A stretch of DNA of 64,000 bases, from positions 280,962-344,961 of the forward strand of contig NZ_AQXI01000001.1 of assembly GCF_000376445.1 (NCBI RefSeq), in the 5' to 3' direction. Shown piece after piece: positions 30,683-41,659 of this stretch. The notes beneath the pieces are model-generated. The model made no database searches, was not told the origin of the DNA, and was given only the letters and a program-made list of their open reading frames with translations. Origin of the DNA: Haladaptatus paucihalophilus DX253 (lineage in GTDB: Archaea; Halobacteriota; Halobacteria; Halobacteriales; Haladaptataceae). How positions within the stretch are numbered: the first letter of the stretch is position 1; each line of letters begins with the position of its first letter. Position numbers and translations under genes: made by a program.

Positions 30683-30773
30683 GGTTCGGTCGAACCGAGA
30701 CGACATCTGTATTCGGGACGGCGTTTGGATTCGAGACGGCGTTTCGACTCGGCGGTGAGAATGCGATATGAAT

Positions 30774-31081
30774 GTGGACGGCCGGGGTTGCCCGGCGTTC
30801 CGGACCGGGGAATCCCGGTTGCCTCCTCCACCCCGCGATCCGACGAGCGACAGCTGTTCGGCGGTCCGCTGCTCACTTCCGTGCCTGACGGATTGCCACC
30901 GACTAACCGCGACGGGACACCCCTGCGAGTGTTCGCCGCGGACCGCTGGCCCCGTCGGACGAGGCTTCTGCGTTGGCTTTCGGGGCCCGGCCCGGTCTGA
31001 CCGGACGTACCCGGAGTTTGGTTCCCGCTCAAGACCATAGCGCGGGCGGGGAGCAGGGCCTAACTGCCCAACCTAGTCCAC
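30774..31081 (-). ncRNA. Signal recognition particle 7S RNA
   Basis: The minus strand carries the SRP domain-S hallmark GTCAGGCACGGAAGTGAGCA (30889 down to 30870), the conserved SRP54-binding helix 8 with its GGAA-type bulge region and AGCAGC. The 5' segment TAGGTTGGGCAGTTAGGCCC is the Alu-domain start seen in haloarchaeal 7S RNAs. The ends pair as helix 1: GTGGAC (31081-31076) with GTCCAC (30779-30774). Length is about 308 nt, as expected. A TATA-like CTTAAG near 31103-31108 fits a start at about 31081. The RNA works with SRP19 and SRP54 in membrane protein targeting. Confidence 0.93.
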
Positions 31082-31155
31082 TTCCTTCTACTCCACTCCG
31101 ACTTAAGGGCCTTTCGGGTTCGGAATGGCGTCAAGCTTCGACTTTGCCCCGGAAG

Positions 31156-40495: not shown

Positions 40496-40891
40496 TTCGA
40501 CGGTCAAACAAAAGCTTGCGGCGTCCGTTCGATCCTCGAACGGTTTGTATCCGACCGAGGGTAGTAGAGTATTCATAAAACAGTGCCAACGACCGAATTC
40601 GTTGCCGTTCGAGACCAACACGAGTCGCAACGAGTCGGGCCGTTTCACGTCACCGTCGTCAGTCGTGGTGCGCTTCGGTCGGATTATTCGACAGTAGGGA
40701 CCGTATAACAATACCGGATGCGGCCATTGGATGAATTGCGAGCGTCGTAGGGTGCGACCGGGTCGCCACGCACTCCGCGACGTTCGAGCACAGCTGCCCA
40801 ACGTCGTGTTCCACGGCATACTCACGCCAGTCAGGTCGTGCCCGCTTCCCGGCACGGCCATACCGCGCTCCGGTGGGGGACTCCGGGACGA

Positions 40892-40981
40892 GAACGGGTT
40901 GCTTGTTGGTAGAAGCACCATCGACCCCGCGTCGGTGGCGGCCACTTCGTGGCCCCGGTGGTTCGATTCCACCCCCGTTCG
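40892..40981 (+). ncRNA. Class-II tRNA-like RNA with an abnormal anticodon arm
   Basis: The parts of a long-variable-arm tRNA are present: acceptor GAACGGG (40892-40898) / CCCGTTC (40974-40980), TT at 8-9, D arm GCTT-GTTGGTAG-AAGC (40901-40916), variable arm GGCCAC-TTC-GTGGCC (about 40940-40954), and T arm GGTGG-TTCGATT-CCACC (40957-40973), with G as discriminator. The anticodon arm is wrong for a working tRNA: 21 nt, folding as an 8-bp stem CCATCGAC/GTCGGTGG with a 5-nt loop CCCGC, no U33. Either a tRNA pseudogene or a tRNA-mimic. A TATA at 40704-40709 and a hairpin at 40739-40786 precede it; TTTTT follows at 41008-41012. Confidence 0.55.
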
Positions 40982-41064
40982 TACAACGAGTTCGGTGGAG
41001 CGGTCGATTTTTAATGCGATGGAACGGCACGATTCGCGTGCCGACGTCCGTTCGTCACGGAAAG

Positions 41065-41659
41065 CTACTCGCGTCGTTCCCTGCCCATCGTGTGGAACTC
41101 GTCGTTCGGTCGCCAGTCGGCGAACATGGCCATCCGGTTCGAGAGGTTGAAAAAGGACGTCACGCTTCCGATGTCCCAGACTTCCTCGTCGCTGTACCCG
41201 ACGTCGCGCAGTCGTTGTAGGTCGTCGTCGGACACCTCGGTCGGGCGCTCGGTGAGTTTCACCGCCACGTCGAGCATCGCCACCCGCTTCTCGCTCACGT
41301 CCGCCCTGCCGGTAGTTCGCCACCAACTGGTCGGCGAGGGTGGGCCGTTTCGCGTAGATGCGAACGAGCGCGCCGTGGGCGACGTTGCAGTAATAGCAGT
41401 GGTTGACCCCGGAGACGGCGACGATTATCATCTCTACCTCCTCGCGGTCGAGCGACGTATCGTCGACGAGGGCGTCGTGGAAGGCCATGAACGCGCGGAA
41501 GTGGGAGGGCTTGTACGCGAGCGCCGCGAACACGTTCGGCGTGAATCCGGCGCGTTCGGTCTCCTCGTCGATGCGTTCGCGGAGGTCGTCGGGAATCTCA
41601 TCGTAGTCGGGGACGGGAAATCGTCGCTGTGCCTCGTCGGAGAGGGTCGGGTCGGACAT
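41065..41659 (-). pseudogene. AhpD-like peroxidase-related gene with a one-base frameshift
   Basis: The N-terminal part from ATG 41659 reads a peroxidase-related CMD/AhpD protein (NVFAALAYKPSHFRAFMAFH, then VSGVNHCYYCNVAHGALVRI with CYYC and His). After ADQLVANYRQ the frame departs; the continuation VSEKRVAMLDVAVKLTERPT through NLSNRMAMFADWRPNDEF lies in the next frame down to TAG at 41065. Removing one C from the CCC run at 41304-41306 (plus strand) restores NYRQADVSEKR as in relatives. It is a recent pseudogene or a sequencing slip in a C-run. Confidence 0.8.

Follow-up and report, generated by a model that had tools for sequence, protein, structure and literature searches.

A tRNA-like RNA family of haloarchaea with a variable hairpin in place of the anticodon

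The tRNA-like domain and the unit that carries it

The window analysed here is a 64,000-nt stretch of the main contig of the Haladaptatus paucihalophilus DX253 genome (G000:C1:280962-344961), and a class-II cloverleaf can be read directly from its forward strand at 40892-40981. Its 7-bp acceptor stem pairs GAACGGG (40892-40898) with CCCGTTC (40974-40980) and is followed by the discriminator G73 at 40981, the last base of the domain. The D arm (40901-40916) has a 4-bp stem and contains G18G19, the long variable arm (GGCCAC-TTC-GTGGCC, 40940-40954) forms six pairs of which three show compensatory changes, and the T arm (40957-40973), assigned by direct reading and comparison of copies, has the canonical five pairs and the loop TTCGATT. 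The acceptor, D and T arms and the elbow residues U8, G18G19 and TTCRANY are therefore all present as in a canonical tRNA. This class-II architecture, which the original prediction had described, was confirmed by the direct reading, by the predicted fold (-46.2 kcal/mol, z -3.5, equalled by none of 200 shuffled sequences) and by a comparison of 22 copies.

The anticodon arm departs from this pattern. As predicted, it is 21 nt long and lacks U33: at 40918-40938 it reads CCATCGAC-CCCGC-GTCGGTGG, an 8-bp stem closed by a 5-nt loop (CCCGC, 40926-40930). Opening the closing C-G pair gives an alternative geometry of 7 bp with the 7-nt loop CCCCGCG, in which position 33 is C. A canonical 7-nt loop with U33 on a 5-bp stem was not found here, and among nine copies dispersed in Haladaptatus whose arm allows a 7-nt loop, only one has U33, with that loop on an extended stem.

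ARAGORN made no call for the domain and found no tmRNA in the window region, and the Rfam tRNA model (RF00005) gave no match at its gathering threshold. A tmRNA was rejected on structure as well, since its tRNA-like domain is split around an mRNA-like tag, whereas the tRNA-like part here is contiguous and lies at the 3' side. The best sub-threshold Rfam match was tRNA-Sec (RF01852), at 34.6 bits against a gathering cut-off of 47, and the likeness lies in the class-II shape, G73 and the TTCGAAUCC T loop. However, tRNA-Sec is recognized by a 13-bp acceptor-T stack, arranged as 8/5 or 9/4 (PMC7609411), whereas the window copy has a 7/5 stack, a 4-bp D stem and a hairpin arm without the UCA anticodon, and tRNA-Sec was rejected.

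The domain forms the 3' end of a conserved unit of about 290 nt (40693-40982, forward strand), the dispersed, leader-bearing form of the RNA. Its limits are those of the blastn matches in other Haladaptatus genomes, which start at 40693-40705 and end at 40982, with unrelated flanks; the T at 40982, just past G73, is unchanged in all 22 copies. At the 5' end lies a promoter-like box (40696-40712) with the TATA-like core ATAACAAT at 40705-40712, 187 nt upstream of the tRNA-like domain, where such an element had been proposed; the core is invariant in 22/22 copies. The RNA start is predicted about 20-28 nt downstream of the box. The leader contains two hairpins with covarying pairs according to RNAalifold: P1 (GAGCGTCG / CGACGTTC, 40740-40785), which corresponds to the long hairpin previously placed at 40739-40786, and P2 (GGTCGTGCC / GGCACGGCC, 40834-40859), in which single pairs occur in several types. 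A transcript of about 280 nt with the tRNA-like part at its 3' side had been suggested; this layout agrees with the joint occurrence of box, leader and domain in the 22 copies, and its transcription is predicted from them. The proposed end of the transcript at a T5 run (41008-41012) does not hold, because the run lies outside the conserved unit and the sequence beyond 40982 is unrelated between copies.

Two other features of the window were recorded. On the reverse strand, an archaeal SRP RNA is found at 30772-31083 (187.5 bits, Rfam), and an AhpD-like gene (carboxymuconolactone decarboxylase type) at 41041-41659 is frameshifted after ...VANYRQ, with intact orthologues in two other Haladaptatus genomes (L032 and L033).

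Dispersed copies in Haladaptatus

A blastn search of 59 genomes, comprising the host and eight other Haladaptatus genomes among them, found the region in the host and in seven of the other eight Haladaptatus, and the dispersed form was absent from all other genera in this set. The unit is thus present in eight of nine Haladaptatus species, in several copies in most and mostly on megaplasmids; the host has a single copy and one species (G003) has none. In PLSDB, copies were found on plasmids of H. caseinilyticus, H. halobius, H. pallidirubidus and H. salinisoli. Some copies have longer flanks in common, which suggests that they moved with larger segments, and many are alike in the unit alone. 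The flanks of the window copy have no synteny in the other genomes compared, and no shared neighbour gene was found at the loci inspected. Integron attC sites and inverted-repeat ends were considered and dropped after the unit ends had been read.

Two further observations concern genome structure. The 21.5-kb H. halobius plasmid NZ_CP085343.1 (L046) looks like a head-to-tail dimer, its gene set repeating every 10.7 kb with one tRNA-like copy per repeat, and may be an assembly dimer. On the H. pallidirubidus chromosome, identical segments that include tRNA-like copies lie about 552 kb apart (G006:C1:1611767 and 2163616), reflecting a large duplication or an assembly artefact.

We aligned 22 distinct full copies (extracts of 266-305 nt), in which the box, a variable leader and the tRNA-like part travel together and homology breaks off sharply after the tRNA-like end. 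The acceptor stem shows no variation and the elbow residues are invariant or nearly so, whereas the anticodon arm ranges from 21 to more than 35 nt, with lengths above 50 nt in another subgroup; mean pairwise identity is 0.55 in the anticodon-arm region against 0.94-1.0 in the T arm and acceptor. A homologous region in another species without the pairing would have spoken against the original prediction. Pairing is instead kept in 98.4% of the cells; the search with the whole region yielded kept pairing in eight of nine congeneric genomes, more than expected by chance. Both sides changed in 6 pairs compared to 1.6 in shuffled alignments, covariation was above that of 500/500 shuffles, and the compensatory changes lie in the D, anticodon and variable helices.

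A single-copy relative across the Halobacteria

A covariance search had also been proposed. The Rfam models gave the domain no match above threshold. A model built on the tRNA-like domain detected a further RNA, which all Haladaptatus genomes contain, G003 among them, and which also occurs in other families of haloarchaea. This form is usually present once per genome, chromosomal, without a leader and likewise anticodon-less; the host copy occupies G000:C1:934644-934729. In this form the acceptor reads GGAAGGG, the D arm is canonical (GCTCAGTGGTAGAGC) and the anticodon arm hypervariable; an AT-rich promoter box (CATAACAAAG or CGATTACAAATACG) lies about 25-35 nt upstream, a position similar to that which T/A-rich boxes tend to occupy at host tRNA genes. 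A single-base bulge occurs in the T stem of all GGAAGGG-type sequences measured (sets of 28, 60 and 16, which overlap in part); it lies on the 5' strand, at a distance of one or two pairs from the loop. The window copy matches the single-copy RNA at 72% of the core, compared to at most 64% for the host tRNAs compared.

The exact signature of the single-copy form occurs in 168 of 391 Halobacteria genomes and in 43 of 86 genera, a count that misses divergent members; as a negative control, the reversed pattern gave no match. Apart from one unclassified Euryarchaeota MAG, all contigs that matched among 84,980 named genomes are haloarchaeal, and the absence of the model genera Haloferax and Halobacterium from these contigs suggests that they lack the gene. 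The 391-genome sample includes 8 further genomes with a GAAMGGG type, which is nearer to the window copy and whose T stem is canonical; several genomes carry both types. The covariance model R2 matched 286 genomes; since R2 cannot separate weak members from tRNA-Ser (4 of 20 weak matches within the class are ordinary tRNA-Ser), this count was set aside in favour of 168. Outside the Halobacteria, the R2 matches stay below 66 bits and are as long as class-II tRNAs, which they probably represent. In an alignment of 44 sequences of the dispersed and single-copy forms, double-change cells numbered 165 against about 50 in shuffles, a difference that leans towards the model because the alignment was fitted to its structure.

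Single-copy members vary among themselves: most have G73 and some have discriminator A, the variable arm is weakly conserved in or missing from some (L246, L249), and some pass RF00005 at 39-44 bits. Their neighbours were mechanically called, uncurated ORFs given family labels by reading of the sequences. A helicase-like gene adjoins in 43 loci, apparently of Natrialbaceae, and glmS is nearby in 8 loci, apparently of Haladaptatus and Halorussus; since this synteny is family-specific only, the neighbourhood does not indicate one function. Halegenticoccus soli carries three single-copy-type loci (L203, L207, L213) and Halobium salinum two (L163, L181), with differing anticodon arms in each species, and at L140 and L142 a tRNA-Gly(TCC) gene directly follows a tRNA-like gene of the GAAAGGG type.

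No description of either form was found in Rfam or in the open-licence literature searched on haloarchaeal tRNA-like, anticodon-less and pseudo-tRNAs and sRNAs, and searches of phage records, IMG/VR and Rfam gave tRNA-like scores and nothing further. The RNA family is real and conserved, and apparently undescribed. Genes resembling tRNAs have been annotated as pseudogenes in tRNA gene clusters of Haloarcula and relatives, and the sections of that report consulted here handle them as pseudogenes and describe no family (PMC6333295); they are set beside the present RNA by description only.

A probable tRNA mimic outside decoding

We consider it somewhat probable (about 0.6) that this part of the window is a copy of a non-coding RNA gene composed of a promoter, a leader and a non-decoding tRNA mimic that is under selection and probably acts outside translation. 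The ATAACAAT box would drive a transcript of about 255 nt, in which a structured leader of about 165 nt precedes the class-II tRNA-like domain. RNase P would separate leader and mimic by a cut at 40891/40892, tRNase Z would cut after G73, and CCA would then be added; judged by sequence, maturation by these three enzymes is probable. Because the acceptor, G18G19, the TTCRANT loop, the elbow and G73 are kept while the anticodon is unusable, the RNA is expected to enter tRNA maturation and not to decode. Constraint falls on the parts that RNase P, tRNase Z, the CCA enzyme and elbow-binding proteins see, and the part that the ribosome reads is free to vary, which argues for a mimic outside decoding; with a variable hairpin replacing the anticodon, the family is almost certainly not for reading codons. 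The mature mimic would occupy a tRNA-binding protein or a nuclease, as a decoy or scaffold. The window copy would represent the leader-bearing, multicopy branch, and its commoner relative the leaderless, usually single-copy chromosomal gene. The earlier observation is confirmed and its interpretation partly supported, its suggestions of a tRNA mimic and of a substrate for tRNA end-processing enzymes both being compatible with the sequence data. The single copy in the host, the Haladaptatus species that lacks the dispersed form and the failure to find a common neighbour gene weigh against our reading.

RNase P and tRNase Z cut the tRNA-like elements (t-elements) of Haloferax volcanii, which serve as processing elements beside other RNAs (PMC4946936). 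The present RNA resembles them as a tRNA shape within a longer, here predicted, haloarchaeal transcript and as an expected substrate of the same enzymes, and its modelled structure is compatible with such cleavage; unlike them, it forms an autonomous unit that has a promoter box of its own, and it has a separate class-wide single-copy gene. Bacterial Y RNA (YrlA), tmRNA, mascRNA and gammaherpesvirus TMERs also contain a tRNA-like module, one that draws on the enzymes of tRNA maturation and does not decode. The likeness to these non-coding RNAs is one of description, as no sequence relation was seen, and the present RNA differs in its complete cloverleaf, its anticodon arm as a free hairpin and its restriction to haloarchaea.

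Several other explanations were weighed. The original prediction had allowed for a decayed tRNA, and a functionless tRNA-derived dispersed repeat (SINE- or MITE-like), spread on plasmids passively or by transposition, would account for the multiple, mostly megaplasmid-borne copies with sharp ends and unrelated flanks. However, compensatory changes in the anticodon, variable and leader helices, an acceptor and elbow that stay invariant at 66-80% overall identity, and single-copy orthologues kept across 43 genera disfavour decay, and sharing of k-mers across the unit ends equalled that of shuffled pairings (p 0.13-0.36), so that no target-site duplication signal above chance was seen; we regard this explanation as improbable. 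Equally improbable in our view is charging by SerRS, which would recognize G73 and the long variable arm without reading the anticodon, the amino acid then being donated outside the ribosome. It is consistent with G73 in 22/22 dispersed and most single-copy members, with the class-II variable arm and with the ordinary tRNA-Ser among the weak model matches, and in the single-copy form the bulged T stem could keep the elongation factor away; the members with discriminator A, those whose variable arm is weakly conserved or missing and the lack of a transferase among the neighbours speak against it.

A slightly less probable proposal is a decoy aimed specifically at nucleases that cut the anticodon, such as VapC (PIN) toxins, with the anticodon arm tracking changing nucleases. 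No part of the domain is less conserved than that arm, VapBC genes are among the neighbours of some copies, and for the dispersed copies a PIN/VapBC gene lies less than 600 bp away at two independent places (p about 0.007-0.025, post hoc). This is a weak positional hint, as a PIN gene is missing within 3 kb of 29 of 32 copies, among them the window copy. An unusual working tRNA, with an intron hidden in the arm or a 7-nt loop on a 7-bp stem, is very unlikely: ARAGORN forces anticodons (Arg, Trp, His, Gly, Gln, Glu) on some copies, but these isotypes vary without pattern between homologues, eight of the nine copies with 7-nt-loop geometry lack U33, arm length runs from 15 to more than 50 nt, and the host genome encodes the Ser and Leu tRNAs that would be expected.

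For the non-decoding mimic, a decoy is the leading but unproven role, and nothing in the conserved parts of the domain favours it over an aminoacyl donor. More tentatively, the family may be a class-wide tRNA-derived RNA with a dedicated non-translational job, kept from the elongation factor by the T-stem bulge in its single-copy form, which in Haladaptatus gained a structured leader, spread on megaplasmids and diversified its anticodon arms, for example as decoys against tRNA-cutting toxins.

Anticodon-less tRNA mimics are known chiefly from scattered bacterial, viral and mammalian cases. If the present reading is true, a conserved, usually single-copy gene across much of an archaeal class would constitute a new RNA family, missed or mis-called by tRNA finders and open to a clear genetic test in haloarchaea that can be cultivated, and the tRNA annotation of haloarchaeal genomes may be contaminated by the mimic.
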